The notes below the pieces were generated by a model. The model did not search any database. It saw nothing but the letters and a program-made list of their open reading frames with translations, and was not told the DNA's origin. A program made the position numbers and the translations under genes. From the NCBI GenBank assembly GCA_022826905.1, contig JAJDUA010000008.1, forward strand, positions 1 to 64,000: DNA of 64,000 nucleotides, given 5' to 3'. Below, in pieces: positions 22,901 to 34,648 of the stretch; position 1 is the first letter of the stretch, and the number at the start of each line of letters is the position of its first letter. The stretch comes from Candidatus Dadabacteria bacterium (lineage in GTDB: Bacteria; Desulfobacterota_D; UBA1144; Nemesobacterales; Nemesobacteraceae).

Positions 22901-25900
22901 ATGACTAAACGCCCAATTTCAAAGCGCAGGGTCAGCGGTTCATCGGACACTGGAACTGACGAAAGCGCAGGAATTCCTCAAAACGAAATCGGAGCTTTTT
23001 CGCACCCCTGTGTTTCACTTGACCTTGAAGTTGGGAAACATAACAACCGAATTCACGCCTTCGCAGCGGTGCGCCCAGATACCGGTCAATCTATTCTTTT
23101 CCGAGATGGAGATTTGCTGGCTGAACTGTCGAAATTGGATGACCTTGCGGACGAGGCATCTTTCCTCCTTGGTCACAATCTAATCGATTTTGACCTGCCT
23201 CGCCTAGCTGCCGCAAAACCCGATCTACGGTTGTTGAAACTTCCTTCGATCGATACGCTTTGGCTAAGTCCTCTGGCTTTTCCCCGCAATCCTTATCACA
23301 AGCTTGTAAAGCACTATCAGGATGCTGGACTGAAACGCGGACAAAGAAACAACCCTGAACTTGATGCCAAGATCACGGTTGAACTTTTCAGTAGCGAATG
23401 GGAGGCTCTGCGAAAAACTTCCCCGAACCTGCTTGCAGCGTGGCACTGGTTAACCACTGCGGGAGATAGGATGTCTGGTTTTGACATGTTTTTCTCTGAT
23501 CTCAGGCTCTCACGCCGTCCTTCGGATAAAGAAGCCCGTACGGCGATACGCAAGCAGTTAAAGGGTAAGGCCTGCCGTACCCACGCCCTTAATATCGTAA
23601 AAGACGTTCACCGCTTTGGCTGGGCGTTTGCTTACGCTTTGGCGTGGCTTTCTGTATCTGGGGGCAACTCCGTTATGCCACCTTGGGTCCGTCATCAATT
23701 TCCCAAGGCAGGTCATTTAGTTCACCAGTTGCGCGATACCGCATGTGCAGATTCTGCCTGTAATTGGTGCCGTGAAAGACATGATGCCCGCAAGGAACTT
23801 GCCCGCTGGTTTGGCTTTTCCGATTTCCGCCGGGAACCGCTCGATGCTGACGGTAGACCAATGCAACGATCAATAGTTGAGACGGTTATGGCGGGGGACC
23901 ATGTTCTTGGTATTATGCCCACTGGTGCGGGCAAGTCGCTTTGCTATCAGGTCCCGGCCCTCTCGCGCTACGATAAGACTGGTGCTTTGACAGTTGTAAT
24001 TTCCCCCTTGGTTGCTCTCATGGCTGATCAGGTAGCGGGACTTGCATCCAAGGGAATTATTTCGTGTGTGACCATAAACGGATTGCTGTCCATGCCCGAG
24101 CGGGCAGAGGCTCTGGACAAGGTAAGACTCGGGGATGCAAGCATGCTCATCATTTCTCCTGAACAGTTACGCAGCCGTTCCCTTCGGCGAGTACTTGATC
24201 AGCGAGAGATTGGTGCGTGGGTGCTAGATGAGGCTCATTGTCTCTCAAAGTGGGGGCATGATTTCAGGCCCGATTACCGTTATGTGGGACGTTTTATCCG
24301 CCAAAGGGCCAAAGGGGAGCCGATACCTCCCCTGCTTTGCCTTACCGCGACTGCGAAGCCCGATGTCATAGAGGAAATCACTCTTTATTTCCGAGAAGAG
24401 CTGGGAGTTGATCTCGCTGTCTTTAACGGAGGAGCCGATCGTCCCAACCTGACGTTCGAAGTCATACCGACGAATGAGGCGGAGAAATTCTCCCACATAT
24501 ACCAAGTTATTGAAAATGCCCTGCCGGCAGATATGCCAGGAGGCGTAATCGTGTACTGCGCGACGCGTAGACAAAGCGAAGAGGTGGCTGAGTTTCTTTC
24601 GAACAAGGGTCTTGAAGCGGGCCATTTTCATGCCGGACTGCCGCCGGAAACCAAGAAAAACGTACAGCAGAGTTTCATTGAAGGAGATTTACGCGTTATT
24701 GCTGCCACAAATGCGTTTGGCATGGGTATTGACAAGCCCGATGTGCGCCTTGTGGTTCATTCGGATATACCGAGTTCGCTTGAGAACTACTTGCAGGAAG
24801 CGGGTAGGGCAGGGAGGGATCAGAAACCTGCGCGTTGCGTTATGCTCTACGCTAAAGAAGATGTAGAGAGGCAGTTTGGAATGTCCGCGCGTTCGCGACT
24901 CACTCGCAGAGAGATTCACGGTATCCTGAGGGCCTTGCGCAGGCTGGATCTGAAGAAACGTCTGGATGGTGAAATTATAGCCACTGCCGGGGAAATACTG
25001 ATTGAGGATGAGGATAACGAGTTTGTTAGAGACTCTGCTACCGACGATACCCGGGTGCGGACCGCCATCTCCTGGCTTGAAGAAGCCGTACTGCTTTCCC
25101 GGGAAGAAAATCTGGTTAACGTGTTCCCCTCGTCCCTTCAGGTCGACTCGCTGAAGGAAGCTCTGGACAGGCTTGAAAAAAAATCTTTTGGGGATGCGAA
25201 TCGTCGTCAACTTATGTCAATTGTTGAGGCGATAATGGATGCGGACATGGATGAAGGCATTTCCACAGACCAACTCATGTACGTATCGGGTCTTAGTGCT
25301 GAGGGTGTTAGTGCCGCTCTTTATGACCTTGAGCAGCTAGGCATAGCTAGTAATGACGTCATACTGACCGCCTTTGTGCATTCAGGTGTGGAACACTCAT
25401 CGCTTAGACGCTTTAAGGAAACGCAGGATCTTGAGATCGCTCTGATTAGTTATATGCGAGAAATGGAACCGGATATTAAAAAAAGAGGGAAATTTACGCT
25501 GCTTTTACGGGCGGCGGCGCAAAAACTTCGGGAACAAGGAATGGTAAACTCCTTGCCGCAGCGGTTGCTGGGCCTGCTGCGCAGCATAGCTTACGACGGT
25601 CGGGGCGAAGGGGGCGACGCGGGAAGTCTGGGAGTGCGGAATCACGACGGGGACACTGTACGGGTGACGCTTCGGAGGGAATGGAATGCACTTGAGAAGA
25701 CTGCGGAGGTCAGACGTGCCGCGGCGAACCTCCTGCTTGGACACCTGCTGGGCTGTGTGCCGAAGGGGGTGCGTGGAACTGATATTATGGTGGATACAAC
25801 CCTTGGGAAACTGTTAGAAGCAATTACTTCTGATCTAGCCTTAAAGAGCGAAGTCAAGGATCCCGTCAGATTACAAAACCGTGCTTTGCTTTGGCTTCAC

Positions 25901-28090
25901 GAACAGGAAGTCATTCGTCTTAACAAGGGTCTTACGGTGTTCCGTATGGCCATGACTATCCGCTTGAAACAGGAGAGACGAGGATTTGCCAAGGTTGATT
26001 TCGAACCGCTTGCCCTGTACTACAGGGGACGGGTTCAGCAGATACATATAATGGCCGAGTTCGCGCGCAGGGGACTTGATTCCATTTCCGAGGCCCAGAA
26101 GCTGGTCTCTGACTACTTTAGCCTCAAGCAGGATGACTTCCTTAGCAACTGGCTGCCTGGACGCCAAAGGGAACTTGGCCGGGAAACCACGCCCGAGTCG
26201 TGGCGGGCAATAGTGGAGAGCTTGAACAGTCCCGCTCAGCAGCGGATCGTTGCGGATGACCGGGAACAGACAAACGTACTGGTGCTTGCCGGTCCCGGTT
26301 CCGGCAAAACACGGGTGCTGGTGCATCGCATCGCCTACCTGCTGCGCGTCAGGCGGGAGAACCCCCGCAGCATCATGGCCTTGGCTTATAACCGCCACGC
26401 GGCGGTCGACATCCGCCGCCGCCTGAGAGATCTTGTTGGTAACGATGCCTTGGGAGTGACGGTGCTTACGTGCCATGCTCTAGCTATGCGCCTGGTTGGC
26501 GCCAGCTTCGCCGAAGCGTCGGAGTCTCCGGACGACGCATTTTTTCGGGAAATGCTACGTCAGGCGATAGCTTTGCTCCATGGGGAAGGGGTACCGCCGG
26601 AACAATCGGATGAGCAGCGGGAACGGCTACTTGCCGGTTTTCGCTGGATACTGGTTGACGAATATCAGGATATCGGCGCGGACGAGTATGAATTGATATC
26701 GGCTTTGGCCGGGCGAACACTCGATGAGGAGGAAGGCAAGCTTACACTTTTCGCAGTAGGCGACGATGATCAGAATATCTACGCTTTTAACGGCGCTTCA
26801 GTGGAATTTATCCGTCGTTTTGAGAAAGATTACAAATCCCGCCCCGCTTTTCTGATCGAGAACTACCGCTCTACCCATCACATTATCTCGGTAGCAAACG
26901 CCGTGATCGAACCTGCGCGGGAACGTATGAAGGTTGATAAACCCATCCGTGTTAACCACGCGCGTTCAAGGGATCCGCGGGGAGGTGAATGGGAGAAACT
27001 GGATCCGGTAGCGCGGGGCAGAGTACAGATTCTACCCGCGGGTCGTGACACGGTCTCCCAGGCACTGACTGTGATGACAGAGTTTCAGCGTCTTCAAAGA
27101 CTTTCATCAGATTGGGACTGGTCGAAGTGTGCTGTAATAGCGCGAAAGTGGGAAGACTTAGTTCCGGTCCGTTCTTTCTGTGAGATTAACGGTATCCCTG
27201 TACAGATGGGAAATGAGGACATTCCGAGTTTTTGGCGTCTGCGAGAAACTCAAATTTTTGTCGAATGGTTGCGCAGACAGGAAACCGGTATTGTTGCTAA
27301 TACCGAGCTTGAAAGCTGGTTAGATACACAGACATCTGGCTACTGGAATGACCTTCTGCGACAAGCTGTCGAGGAATATTCTCTGGAAACCGGCGATGCG
27401 GAAACACCGATTGCTCGCTTGATTGAATGGCTTGCTGAATGGGGTCGGGAGATACGTCGTCGGCAGCGTGGACTGCTGCTGCTTAGTGCGCATGGTGCCA
27501 AAGGACTTGAGTTTGACCACGTGATTGTGCTTGACGGTGGTTGGAATCACACCATAAATAATAACAACGTGGATGAAGAGCGCAGGTTGTACTATGTAGC
27601 CATGACGCGCGCAAAAAAGACTTTGGCTCTTGCGCGTCTTGAGAAACCCAATCAGCTACAAGATGCGTTGCTTGGTAATTCCTCGATGATGCTCCGCGAG
27701 CCGACAGGGTTGCTAGATGAATCTGAGGAGCTTAGAACCCGCTTTAGTAGGCTTGGTCTTTGCGATGTGAACTTGGGTTTCGCTGGGTCTCGAGATGCAC
27801 GTAATCCGTTGCATCGCTCTATTTCTGCGCTGTCCCCCGGAGACTCGCTTCAAACGCGGATTGTAAATGAACGCTGGGAATTGCTGGACCAGTCGGGGAC
27901 GGTAGTGGGGCAGCTTGCCAAGAAATTTACACCTCCAGATGGAATGCGCTGTGATTCCGCAACCGTTTTTGCCATCGTAGTTTGGAGCCGGAACGATTCA
28001 GACCCTCAGTACCGGGATAGAATAATGTGCGATAAGTGGGAAGTAGTGGTGCCGGAGCTAGTGTTTGAATCTAAGCAAGTGGATTCCTAG
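22901..28090 (+). CDS. Exonuclease-like / RecQ helicase / UvrD-type helicase fusion protein
   Basis: 1729 residues in one uninterrupted frame. (1) Residues about 35-170: DnaQ-like 3'-5' exonuclease fold with DLE (Asp41, Glu43), GHNLIDFD (Asp96/98), Asp118 and Asp155. (2) About 282-294: Cys282, Cys287, Cys290 and His294, a possible zinc site. (3) About 315-660: RecQ-type SF2 helicase with TGAGKS (Lys345), DEAH (443-446), LTATA (481-485) and QEAGRAGRD. The usual RecQ zinc-binding cysteines are missing afterwards. (4) About 1115-1620: SF1A helicase with AGPGSGKT (Lys1136), DEYQD (1253-1257), GDDDQNIY (1287-1294), HGAKGLEFD (1531) and YVAMTR. GAGGGG precedes the ATG. It stands alone between oppositely oriented housekeeping units. 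Probable roles are DNA repair or defence against foreign DNA; this is inference. Confidence 0.9.
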   Translation: MTKRPISKRRVSGSSDTGTDESAGIPQNEIGAFSHPCVSLDLEVGKHNNRIHAFAAVRPDTGQSILFRDGDLLAELSKLDDLADEASFLLGHNLIDFDLPRLAAAKPDLRLLKLPSIDTLWLSPLAFPRNPYHKLVKHYQDAGLKRGQRNNPELDAKITVELFSSEWEALRKTSPNLLAAWHWLTTAGDRMSGFDMFFSDLRLSRRPSDKEARTAIRKQLKGKACRTHALNIVKDVHRFGWAFAYALAWLSVSGGNSVMPPWVRHQFPKAGHLVHQLRDTACADSACNWCRERHDARKELARWFGFSDFRREPLDADGRPMQRSIVETVMAGDHVLGIMPTGAGKSLCYQVPALSRYDKTGALTVVISPLVALMADQVAGLASKGIISCVTINGLLSMPERAEALDKVRLGDASMLIISPEQLRSRSLRRVLDQREIGAWVLDEAHCLSKWGHDFRPDYRYVGRFIRQRAKGEPIPPLLCLTATAKPDVIEEITLYFREELGVDLAVFNGGADRPNLTFEVIPTNEAEKFSHIYQVIENALPADMPGGVIVYCATRRQSEEVAEFLSNKGLEAGHFHAGLPPETKKNVQQSFIEGDLRVIAATNAFGMGIDKPDVRLVVHSDIPSSLENYLQEAGRAGRDQKPARCVMLYAKEDVERQFGMSARSRLTRREIHGILRALRRLDLKKRLDGEIIATAGEILIEDEDNEFVRDSATDDTRVRTAISWLEEAVLLSREENLVNVFPSSLQVDSLKEALDRLEKKSFGDANRRQLMSIVEAIMDADMDEGISTDQLMYVSGLSAEGVSAALYDLEQLGIASNDVILTAFVHSGVEHSSLRRFKETQDLEIALISYMREMEPDIKKRGKFTLLLRAAAQKLREQGMVNSLPQRLLGLLRSIAYDGRGEGGDAGSLGVRNHDGDTVRVTLRREWNALEKTAEVRRAAANLLLGHLLGCVPKGVRGTDIMVDTTLGKLLEAITSDLALKSEVKDPVRLQNRALLWLHEQEVIRLNKGLTVFRMAMTIRLKQERRGFAKVDFEPLALYYRGRVQQIHIMAEFARRGLDSISEAQKLVSDYFSLKQDDFLSNWLPGRQRELGRETTPESWRAIVESLNSPAQQRIVADDREQTNVLVLAGPGSGKTRVLVHRIAYLLRVRRENPRSIMALAYNRHAAVDIRRRLRDLVGNDALGVTVLTCHALAMRLVGASFAEASESPDDAFFREMLRQAIALLHGEGVPPEQSDEQRERLLAGFRWILVDEYQDIGADEYELISALAGRTLDEEEGKLTLFAVGDDDQNIYAFNGASVEFIRRFEKDYKSRPAFLIENYRSTHHIISVANAVIEPARERMKVDKPIRVNHARSRDPRGGEWEKLDPVARGRVQILPAGRDTVSQALTVMTEFQRLQRLSSDWDWSKCAVIARKWEDLVPVRSFCEINGIPVQMGNEDIPSFWRLRETQIFVEWLRRQETGIVANTELESWLDTQTSGYWNDLLRQAVEEYSLETGDAETPIARLIEWLAEWGREIRRRQRGLLLLSAHGAKGLEFDHVIVLDGGWNHTINNNNVDEERRLYYVAMTRAKKTLALARLEKPNQLQDALLGNSSMMLREPTGLLDESEELRTRFSRLGLCDVNLGFAGSRDARNPLHRSISALSPGDSLQTRIVNERWELLDQSGTVVGQLAKKFTPPDGMRCDSATVFAIVVWSRNDSDPQYRDRIMCDKWEVVVPELVFESKQVDS

Positions 28091-31481: not shown

Positions 31482-31492
31482 GGGGATTGGAC
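31482..31492. repeat. Target-site duplication, left copy (11 bp)
   Basis: GGGGATTGGAC directly abuts the left terminal inverted repeat, and an identical copy abuts the right one at 33581-33591. This is the mark left by staggered cutting during transposition. ISAs1-family duplications are usually somewhat shorter (about 8-10 bp). Confidence 0.8.
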
Positions 31493-31502
31493 AAGGCTCT
31501 CT
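31493..31502. repeat. Left terminal inverted repeat of the insertion sequence
   Basis: AAGGCTCTCT is the exact reverse complement of the bases at 33571-33580 and lies immediately inside the target duplication. Confidence 0.8.
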
Positions 31503-31700
31503 TATTCTTGAAGCGAATTGCGGAGCTGATACCGGGGAGCAAACAATTTGTCGGCGCAGAACAGGGGTTTGTGCCGGAAAGCCGCCCTCCCGGACATTGC
31601 CGGCACGCGTACCGGTACTTTTTGACGTCTGCCGGCGAAGTGTCGCCTTGAGATTCCGGATTTTTATGGAAATGAAGATGGCGGGGAATATTCTGCCAGG

Positions 31701-33482
31701 CTAACCCGGTGAGAACAGGGCTTCAAAAGCCGCTTCCCTGTTCAGCGCGAAGTGTCTGGTGGCCTCGGCAGCGCTTTTGAACTTGTTGTGGAAAATAACC
31801 GCCAGCGCTATGTTGGCGCACGCGGCGTTGTTGGCGGGAGCGCCGCCCACGCGAGAGAGACATCTGTCTTCTCCGAAGGTTGTGTCGCGTATGAGGTGAT
31901 TTCTGGTCTCCACTGACCAGTGTCCCCTGTTCCAGGCAAGCAGTTGTTCGGGAGTGCCCCTGCGCTTGTCAACCGACGTAATCCCGAAAGCGTATTCAAC
32001 AGTCTCTTTACGTGTCTTCATATCCTTGCGCCATCGCCTCACCCGAAACACCTGTTTCACGCAAGGGTAATTGATCATTCTCCTGTAGGCGTCCATAACC
32101 TCTATGGAACGCCGCTCCATACGCCCATGCTCCTTGTTCAGCGCCTCGGCGAAACGTCTCTCGGCGTCCCGCTCCCAGTTCACCGAACTCAGCACCTCGT
32201 AAGTGCGCGGACTGTTGCCCTTAACCGTGAACAGGTAGTCCGCGCCATGGGTCTCCACGATGGAGCGGGCGGTGTTTCTCGTGGTATGCAGGGCGTCAAG
32301 CGTTATGATCCTCCCCTCTATGGAGACTTCTTCGAGCAAAGCCGCGACCGCTGCTCTCTCCCCGCCTTCTTCCCTGAAGTTAAGACTCCCCAGAGGCGCC
32401 CCGCTCCCATGTTCCACCAGAGTTACAACCTCATAATGCTCATCCCCGTTTCTGTTGGCCCCCCGTATCCGTTTGCCGTCCGCTGCCACAGCCTCCCCGA
32501 AACGTACCCGCGCGGAGGAATAACGCGCGAGCGTTTCCTCAAGCTCCCTGGGGTCCAGGCGGCTTATTACCCTGTGCATAGTGGCCCTTGAAACTGCGTC
32601 GTAGCGGCCCGTCTTCCTGTTGTACCATCCCCCAAGAGCCTTAAGCTCATTCTGGGAGAGACTCTTTGCGTACTGCGCCGCCGCGTCACCACCCCTCATC
32701 CCCGAGAGAAACGAGAGAATGTATATAGCCACAACGCACGCCACGCTGTGCTTTCTGCCCTGGGCCCTGCGGAAATCCTCCACCTCCCCCAATTCATCGT
32801 AAAGCGAACGCAGCGCCTCGTCCGATCTGCGGGTGCCCGCCCTCTTCGCTCTCCACCGCTCTCCCAAAGCGTTGCCGCGGCGAAGCATCCCGCGGGCCCC
32901 TCGCCTCAGAGGATATACGTACAGCTCCTTCCTGTTCCCATGGGGCTTCCTGTAAGCTCCGTTTGACCGGGGATATCCCCTGCTTAAACCCACGTACTTC
33001 CAGTTAGACGCCTTGTACATAGCTCCCGAAAAATGCCTGGGGTCCACGAAACTCTCCGCCAGAAGCAGACCGTGCCCGTAACGCTCCTCCCAGTCCCCGC
33101 TCAGCCGCTTCGTCATGGACCCCATGAAGTACGAGGCCAGGTTGGGAAACTCTCCCGCCTCGCCCAGAACCAGAAACCGGGTGTTGTTGCCTATGAGATG
33201 AAGATTGCGGAACTGACACTCCGGCTTCCACCCCACCCAGCGGTCCCGCGGAGCGCACTTGAAAGCTCCCGCCTGCCATCCGGCGATCGCTATCCATCGC
33301 CCCTCGTACTCCGCCACGTACCGAAGACCCCGACCCGCAAACTGCTTGAACCCAAGATAGTGATTCTCGTTCATAAGTTCGTTCCATCTGGGAACTTCGT
33401 CACAACGCGCAACTCTCACGGCAACGTCCTTGAGAACGAACTTCGGAGTTGGAACCGATAATGACCCCTTGCTCATAAACAC
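31701..33482 (-). CDS. ISAs1-type DDE transposase with N-terminal DruA-like (DUF4338) domain
   Basis: 593 residues from a GTG at 33482; the ATG at 33476 is an equally good start. Residues about 15-195 resemble DUF4338, the domain of Druantia protein DruA: WNELMNENHYLGFKQFAGRG, GRWIAIAGW, RFLVLGEAG, ESFVDPRHFSGAMYKASNW. Residues about 222-590 are an ISAs1/H-repeat transposase: DFRRAQGRKHSV, then a DDE triad of Asp335 (VAADGKRIRG), Asp396 (ITLDALHT) and Glu525 (GHWSVETRNH). Standard ISAs1 transposases (about 370 residues) lack the N-terminal part. It moves the element at 31493-33580. No druB-E genes are nearby, so this is not a Druantia system. Confidence 0.88.
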   Translation of the reverse strand: MFMSKGSLSVPTPKFVLKDVAVRVARCDEVPRWNELMNENHYLGFKQFAGRGLRYVAEYEGRWIAIAGWQAGAFKCAPRDRWVGWKPECQFRNLHLIGNNTRFLVLGEAGEFPNLASYFMGSMTKRLSGDWEERYGHGLLLAESFVDPRHFSGAMYKASNWKYVGLSRGYPRSNGAYRKPHGNRKELYVYPLRRGARGMLRRGNALGERWRAKRAGTRRSDEALRSLYDELGEVEDFRRAQGRKHSVACVVAIYILSFLSGMRGGDAAAQYAKSLSQNELKALGGWYNRKTGRYDAVSRATMHRVISRLDPRELEETLARYSSARVRFGEAVAADGKRIRGANRNGDEHYEVVTLVEHGSGAPLGSLNFREEGGERAAVAALLEEVSIEGRIITLDALHTTRNTARSIVETHGADYLFTVKGNSPRTYEVLSSVNWERDAERRFAEALNKEHGRMERRSIEVMDAYRRMINYPCVKQVFRVRRWRKDMKTRKETVEYAFGITSVDKRRGTPEQLLAWNRGHWSVETRNHLIRDTTFGEDRCLSRVGGAPANNAACANIALAVIFHNKFKSAAEATRHFALNREAAFEALFSPG

Positions 33483-33570
33483 TGTTTATAACAGCATTTA
33501 TGGAAAAAAGCCAGCAATATCTTTAAACCCCCGCCATCCCTCAATAATGCTAACCCCTCTCCTTAGCGTG

Positions 33571-33580
33571 AGAGAGCCTT
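33571..33580. repeat. Right terminal inverted repeat of the insertion sequence
   Basis: AGAGAGCCTT, reverse complement of 31493-31502. It lies about 95 bp upstream of the transposase start, the side where its promoter would be expected. Confidence 0.8.
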
Positions 33581-33591
33581 GGGGATTGGAC
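33581..33591. repeat. Target-site duplication, right copy (11 bp)
   Basis: GGGGATTGGAC, identical to 31482-31492. Removing one copy with the element reconstructs an uninterrupted upstream region of ilvE. Confidence 0.8.
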
Positions 33592-34077: not shown

Positions 34078-34353
34078 TCAATTCCAGTCAACTTTAGTTC
34101 TGTAGATGTTTTTTCTATGTCCGACGGCAATGACAGCTATAACGAGCTCTTTGTCCAGTTTGACGCAAAGAAGCCTGTAATCGTTAACCCTGAACCTGTA
34201 GTAGTTTTTCATGTGGCCCGACAGGCGGGAAAGATAGAGGTCGGGGTCAATCGACAGTTTTTCCCTTATCGCCTTGGCAATATTCTCCTTAATGTTTTTC
34301 GGCAACTTGGAAAACTGTTTCTCAGCTTTGCCGGTAAACTTAACTTCCCACAT
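34078..34353 (-). CDS. RelE/ParE-family toxin
   Basis: 91 residues, typical for the superfamily. The pattern WEVKFTGKAEKQFSKLPKNIKENI at the start, LSGHMKNYYRFRVNDYRLLCV in the middle and AVGHRKNIYR at the end is characteristic of RelE-type toxins: a basic, compact fold with late Arg/Tyr residues used in mRNA cleavage. The gene starts 4 bp after the antitoxin stop, the usual antitoxin-toxin order. Toxicity depends on these late residues being functional, which cannot be tested here. Confidence 0.88.
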   Translation of the reverse strand: MWEVKFTGKAEKQFSKLPKNIKENIAKAIREKLSIDPDLYLSRLSGHMKNYYRFRVNDYRLLCVKLDKELVIAVIAVGHRKNIYRTKVDWN

Positions 34354-34357
34354 AGGG

Positions 34358-34627
34358 CTAGAGGTCGTGTTTCTTCTCTATTTCGGAAAAAGGAATCAAC
34401 TTTTCTCCGGAAGCGATGAATTCCCTGTAAGACCTGTCGGCTTCTTCATAATCTTCAATGTCTTCGAGCTTGTTCATCAAAAACAACTCCAGAGACTTTT
34501 TTATGTAGTAGCTCTTTGATCTTTCCTCCGCTCTTGAAATCCTGCTGAGCATTTCACCGAGCTCCGCGGGAATCTGCGCCGATATGCTGACCGTATTGCG
34601 ACGGTTGGACTCAATTTCCTTGGCCAT
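34358..34627 (-). CDS. RelB/CopG-like ribbon-helix-helix antitoxin
   Basis: 89 residues from ATG at 34627. The N-terminal segment NTVSISAQIPAELGEMLSRISRAEERSKSY (residues 10-39, given here in part) fits a ribbon-helix-helix DNA-binding domain. The acidic C-terminal half would wrap the toxin. An upstream TTG at 34645 overlaps the ribosome-binding site AGGGGG (34641-34636), so the ATG is preferred. It likely represses its own promoter at 34649-34677 together with the toxin. Confidence 0.85.
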   Translation of the reverse strand: MAKEIESNRRNTVSISAQIPAELGEMLSRISRAEERSKSYYIKKSLELFLMNKLEDIEDYEEADRSYREFIASGEKLIPFSEIEKKHDL

Positions 34628-34648
34628 ATCAATTACCCCCTGCAAGTG

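Follow-up and report, generated by a model that had tools for sequence, protein, structure and literature searches.

Insertion sequences of the ISAs1 family are usually about 1.2-1.5 kb long. The element considered here is 2090 bp, and its transposase carries about 200 additional residues ahead of the catalytic region. It is located in a 64,000-nucleotide stretch of DNA from a Candidatus Dadabacteria bacterium, which we refer to as the window. What is the additional domain, and what might it do in a transposase? The initial annotation of this DNA had read it as DUF4338, the DruA domain of Druantia anti-phage systems, and had suggested that DruA could stem from, or behave as, a DNA-recognition module of transposons.

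A complete insertion sequence is present inside positions 31482-33591 of the window. Its boundaries are as follows:
31492..33581, minus strand: insertion sequence of the ISAs1 family, its transposase extended at the N terminus (terminal repeats, empty sites, single copy)
33571..33581, minus strand: terminal inverted repeat at the transposase-proximal (5') end, CAAGGCTCTCT; CACGGC... likewise in the homologous loci L005 and L002
31492..31502, plus strand: terminal inverted repeat at the distal (3') end, CAAGGCTCTCT
31483..31491, unstranded: left copy of the target-site duplication, GGGATTGGA; single copy in the G019 and G018 empty sites
33582..33590, unstranded: right copy of the target-site duplication, GGGATTGGA; single copy in the G019 and G018 empty sites

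The two 11-bp terminal inverted repeats are perfect, so that the element reads CAAGGCTCTCT...AGAGAGCCTTG, and it is flanked on both sides by the 9-bp duplication GGGATTGGA, a length within the 8-10 bp range used to recognize the family. Terminal repeats starting with CA and a 9-bp duplication are ISAs1 features beyond the family's sequence models. There is some ambiguity in putting the exact ends, as a direct repeat, TTGGGGATTGGAC, stands either side of the inverted repeat and its bases can be divided between element and duplication in several ways. A 2088-bp element with 10-bp repeats and an 11-bp duplication fits the same bases and is disfavoured by the ends of homologous elements. We prefer the 2090-bp/9-bp reading because the related Thiodictyon elements described below have unambiguous ends (CAGGG...CCCTG) with 10-bp duplications, and because the copies in two other genomes (G021 and G019) begin with CACGGC. 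The initial annotation was right to see a complete element, but its three lengths (2088, 10 and 11 bp) become 2090, 11 and 9 bp. A search for other copies, which it had proposed, yielded only this one in the genome assembly.

The insertion itself can be seen by comparison with genomes of the same genus. Two of them, G019 (94.5%) and G018 (93.2%), align across the junction of the window's joined flanks and lack there precisely the nine bases of the duplication's second copy. Another two (G020 and G026) can likewise be aligned over this point. These empty sites in four genomes prove insertion, and the most likely explanation is that the element arrived after the genus radiated. On one side of the insertion site is a branched-chain aminotransferase-like gene, recognized by eye, and on the other a response-regulator-like gene, whose PF00072 match is below the cut-off of that model. 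Within 34078-34645 (minus strand) there is a ParE-type toxin gene (PF05016, 46 bits) adjoining a small unclassified gene that probably encodes the antitoxin. In G018 and G019 the matches to the flank pass over 34078-34645, while alignments of some other genomes of the genus run through it.

The element encodes a single transposase with the following features:
31701..33482, minus strand: transposase open reading frame, 593 codons plus stop; start GTG 33482 or, likelier, ATG 33476
32523..32795, minus strand: DDE_Tnp_1-associated domain PF13808, residues 230-320 (Pfam)
31851..32438, minus strand: DDE transposase domain PF01609, residues 349-544 (Pfam)
32478..32480, minus strand: catalytic Asp335, motif DGKRIRG
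32295..32297, minus strand: catalytic Asp396, motif DALHTT
31908..31910, minus strand: catalytic Glu525, motif HWSVETRNHL

The family assignment already made for this element is borne out by the ISAs1 model NF033564, which scores 157.2 bits against a cut-off of 70. PF13808 (44.6 bits) and PF01609 (35 bits) are both recognized, and the DDE triad is intact, each residue being exactly where it had been placed (numbering from the GTG). The ATG at 33476 (residue 3) may be the true start rather than the GTG, and is favoured; it closes a hairpin described below. Thus, the element shares with the ISAs1 family the DDE triad, PF13808, terminal inverted repeats beginning with CA and a 9-bp target duplication, and differs in the roughly 200 extra N-terminal residues, which constitute a Mom/DUF4338 domain. 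These residues do precede the DDE region in one open reading frame, as the initial annotation had stated. A frame artefact joining two genes, which it had named as a possible refutation, is excluded by the stop-free frame and by the same fusion in a second genome of the genus (G021), where the protein has 594 residues and is 67% identical to the window protein over nearly the full length.

The genome-set search for further fusions covered the window's own phylum (58 genomes). PF14236, the Pfam model of the domain, occurs in four of these genomes, as three fusions and one stand-alone DruA (G012). At the G019/L002 locus the N-terminal part is kept at 75% identity and the transposase C-terminus is lost. 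A scan of genome contigs gave one relative, in a Dadabacteria MAG. At L002 (3016-3993, Dadabacteria MAG), the Mom-like domain occupies a 325-codon open frame without the transposase C-terminus, and a sequence resembling the 5' terminal repeat is still present upstream of it. A more distant case is an ISAs1 element on plasmids of Candidatus Thiodictyon syntrophicum (NZ_CP020371, NZ_CP020372), which has the same fusion at 39% identity to the window protein and is annotated merely as 'ISAs1 family transposase' plus a hypothetical protein. It is present as two transposed copies:
L003 2865-4921: Thiodictyon copy, 2057 bp
L041 3865-5921: Thiodictyon copy, 2057 bp, 100% identical to the former

Their 10-bp duplications differ by site (gataccctgg versus cctcgcaggc). 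Unlike in the window element, the Thiodictyon frame is interrupted: in both copies it changes near a run of six C, ahead of the DDE glutamate. Programmed frameshifting and mobilisation by another copy are suggested as possibilities. Searches of viral contigs with the domain and with its alignment found no relative, tblastn against phages was unproductive, and sequence searches of the PDB, whether by the protein or by the profile of the domain, returned only a chance-level dehydrogenase. Our literature search found no paper linking DUF4338 with ISAs1.

To characterize the additional domain, we mapped the following features:
32868..33449, minus strand: Mom/DruA-type GNAT domain, residues 12-205 (Pfam, PHROG Mom, hhalign, model plus Foldseek)
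32973-33401, minus strand: PF14236 core, residues 28-170 (Pfam)
33357..33362, minus strand: His41-Tyr42, aligned with the invariant His58-Tyr59 of Mom
33132..33134, minus strand: Ser117, aligned with Ser124 of Mu Mom (alignment to 8bv8)
33000..33053, minus strand: S144-F-V-D147...G153..Y156-K-A158-S-N160-W161, aligned with the signature SFAD...GxxYQASNF of Mom

The identification as DUF4338 survives a profile check: PF14236 ('DruA') matches residues 28-170 with 74.1 bits (E 1.4e-20; gathering score 27). Published work classes DUF4338 as a GNAT domain (PMC10853773). There was also a first hint of a different relationship, namely a weak match to Pfam Mom (PF25680; 14 bits against a cut-off of 27.1, E 0.034, in the window protein; E 0.015 in L002). 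Mom is a DNA-modifying GNAT enzyme acting at adenine N6 (PMC7824862), and it protects Mu DNA from restriction (PMC6483171).

Because of this weak match, we compared the domain with Mom directly. An hhalign comparison of four fused domains with ten phage Mom proteins gave a probability of 95.3% and a score of 58. None of 20 column shuffles was comparable (scores up to 18.4), the reversed profile scored 14.8, and the acetyltransferases SpeG and RimI reached 16 and 9, with probabilities below 1%. When 55 diverse Mom proteins were used, the alignment spanned residues 13-200 of the window protein. Mom and the fused domain are colinear over nearly all of the domain. With a Mom HMM, the fused proteins of the window, of G021 and of the two Thiodictyon copies ranked at the top of 847 entries (open reading frames plus 200 shuffles). 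Of three fused proteins compared with the PHROG 'Mom-like' profile, each gave a match (E 8e-4, 4e-3 and 1e-2). Identity between the window domain and viral Mom proteins is 15-24%.

The similarity extends to individual residues. Most of the Mom signature (HY, R, N..S, D within SF.D, G..Y.A.N) is kept in all four fused proteins. The ten Mom proteins share 16 invariant positions, the initiator not counted; 11 of these are identical in all four fused proteins (H41, Y42, L94, R102, N114, D147, G153, Y156, A158, N160 and G165) and two more in three of the four. The serine aligned with Ser117 is that replaced in the crystal structure of the Mu Mom mutant S124A (PDB 8bv8), a mutant recorded as inactive; the crystal sequence confirms the numbering. 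On the other hand, the window domain differs from Mom in its sub-cut-off Pfam score, in being attached to a transposase and in lacking equivalents of three of the 16 positions (I54, G81 and E108). In the Thiodictyon protein, Ser146 is replaced by Thr and Tyr217 by Leu. Judged by profiles and signature conservation, the domain belongs to the Mom/DUF4338 GNAT superfamily, and by profile it is closest to the Mom DNA-modification enzymes.

This closeness makes catalysis on DNA likelier than recognition alone. Most likely, the domain modifies DNA bases in connection with transposition and is not a part for recognizing DNA, with catalysis being what we infer from the sequence relationship. The main rival is that the domain is catalytically dead and serves as an extra module for DNA binding or target choice. 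Any enzyme of the Mom type has to bind DNA, the domain departs from Mom at three invariant positions, and many transposases have additional N-terminal DNA-binding domains. However, all four fused proteins keep the serine, the His-Tyr pair, the Asp and the Tyr that align with Mom. Moreover, the family's usual N-terminal domain, PF13808, is still present separately at 230-320, and hence nothing is missing for the extra domain to supply. We consider this rival, which is close to the DNA-recognition module of the initial annotation, less likely than a Mom-like enzyme, the leading hypothesis.

A protein-acting GNAT, which would acylate the transposase or a host factor and thereby regulate transposition, is another possibility. 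The predicted structure is relevant here. An AlphaFold model built from the protein and one relative only was discarded (pLDDT 33), and the one built with an alignment including 45 viral Mom proteins reached pLDDT 78 and pTM 0.76 and has the GNAT order of strands and helices. With the latter model, the best Foldseek match in the PDB is Mu Mom (8bv8, E 2e-8), followed by many GNAT acetyltransferases, and a Mom protein is near the top in the viral library. As the alignment behind the model consists mostly of Mom proteins, the predicted fold is consistent with Mom homology and does not constitute independent proof of it. The GNAT fold and the many protein and small-molecule acetyltransferases among the matches would suit a protein substrate. 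Nevertheless, the profiles resemble those of Mom but neither SpeG nor RimI, and the domain has the motifs specific to Mom, making this alternative improbable.

It might also be argued that the domain is a passenger that contributes nothing to transposition, since at G019/L002 the domain-bearing part persists without the transposase C-terminus. Sequence constraint argues against this. Between the window and G021 proteins, the N-terminal domain is 75% identical with a dN/dS of 0.07, compared with 65% and 0.16 for the DDE part, where only the direction of the difference is meaningful because dS is saturated in most comparisons. No other part of the protein is as conserved as the N-terminal domain, and in two species it is in frame with an intact transposase. 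A passenger role is improbable.

A further shared feature concerns the start of the gene:
33474..33502, minus strand: hairpin with a 13-bp stem, ending in the probable start ATG 33476

The G021 hairpin (L005 1448-1476) has a different sequence and the same geometry, and ends in its own ATG (z -7.1). The corresponding z values for the fold around the start codon are -3.2 in Thiodictyon and -2.3 in the window. Hairpins that block translation of transcripts entering from outside are a known device of insertion sequences. The one found here may do the same with read-in transcripts, or may be an operator.

The relationship to Druantia DruA is more limited than the Pfam name implies. The window domain and DruA share the PF14236 core (E 1e-20), but the match covers profile positions 60-220 of 297, leaving out the N- and C-terminal parts of DruA. 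The PADLOC DruA models (PDLC00001/2) gave no match at E<=1 to three fused proteins (P0001-P0003), compared with 295-720 bits for stand-alone DruA proteins. For profile comparison DruA cores were trimmed, alignment of the whole multi-domain proteins being unreliable. Genuine DruA cores match the fused domain moderately (58%), lack the Mom signature and reach a probability of only 0.2-0.3% against Mom profiles. The link to DruA is real at the level of the Pfam domain, and that to Mom, on the present alignments, is stronger and more useful. PADLOC analysis of eight nearby open reading frames showed no Druantia gene, druE-type neighbours included, among the matches listed. That the element captured DruA from a Druantia system and thereby gained an anti-phage role is very improbable: the Pfam name speaks for it, but the PADLOC models are negative, the terminal parts of DruA are absent, and seven of the eight nearest open reading frames scanned match no defence model, the eighth being a RecQ-UvrD helicase that matches general helicase models. 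In a separate case, a Hymenobacter plasmid (L037 3143-6301) encodes a 1052-residue protein with a DruA domain and a region matching SspF models, an unusual defence fusion.

Returning to a base-modifying module, we propose that an ISAs1 transposase acquired, and then long kept, an N-terminal Mom/DUF4338 GNAT domain. That a domain retained for so long would still modify DNA bases has, in our estimate, about an even chance. The base would most likely be adenine, as with Mom, in or close to the DNA to which the transposase binds. The modification could protect the element, after excision or on new insertion, against restriction by the host, as with Mu. An insertion sequence has no packaged genome, so the benefit seen in phage Mu is not directly transferable. 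Alternatively, marking of donor or target DNA could make transposition self-limiting. Control of IS10 and IS50 by adenine methylation provides an analogy. The recognition consensus of Mom is not enriched at the element ends, and this consensus is Mom's and may not be that of the fused domain. The more specific proposal, a self-marking transposon whose DDE transposase marks the DNA that it cuts or inserts by its own active Mom-like hypermodification domain, is tentative, its chances being somewhat below even.

Should the domain prove active, DNA cutting and base modification would be joined in one protein of a simple insertion sequence; in phage Mu these are known only as separate genes. The Pfam model ties the fused domain to DruA, and profile comparison ties it to Mom. 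Activity would also provide the DUF4338/DruA family with a definite biochemical hypothesis and with a small protein on which to test it, and a self-marking transposon, if real, would offer a route to what DUF4338/DruA domains do.

The RecQ-UvrD helicase mentioned above is encoded 3.4 kb away from the element, and its best matches are the DpdF and GajB models. This 1729-residue protein (22901-28090, plus strand) combines a RecQ/DEAD-type and a UvrD-type helicase in one chain. Its N-terminal segment resembles a DEDD exonuclease by eye, and the whole is an unusual DNA-processing enzyme.
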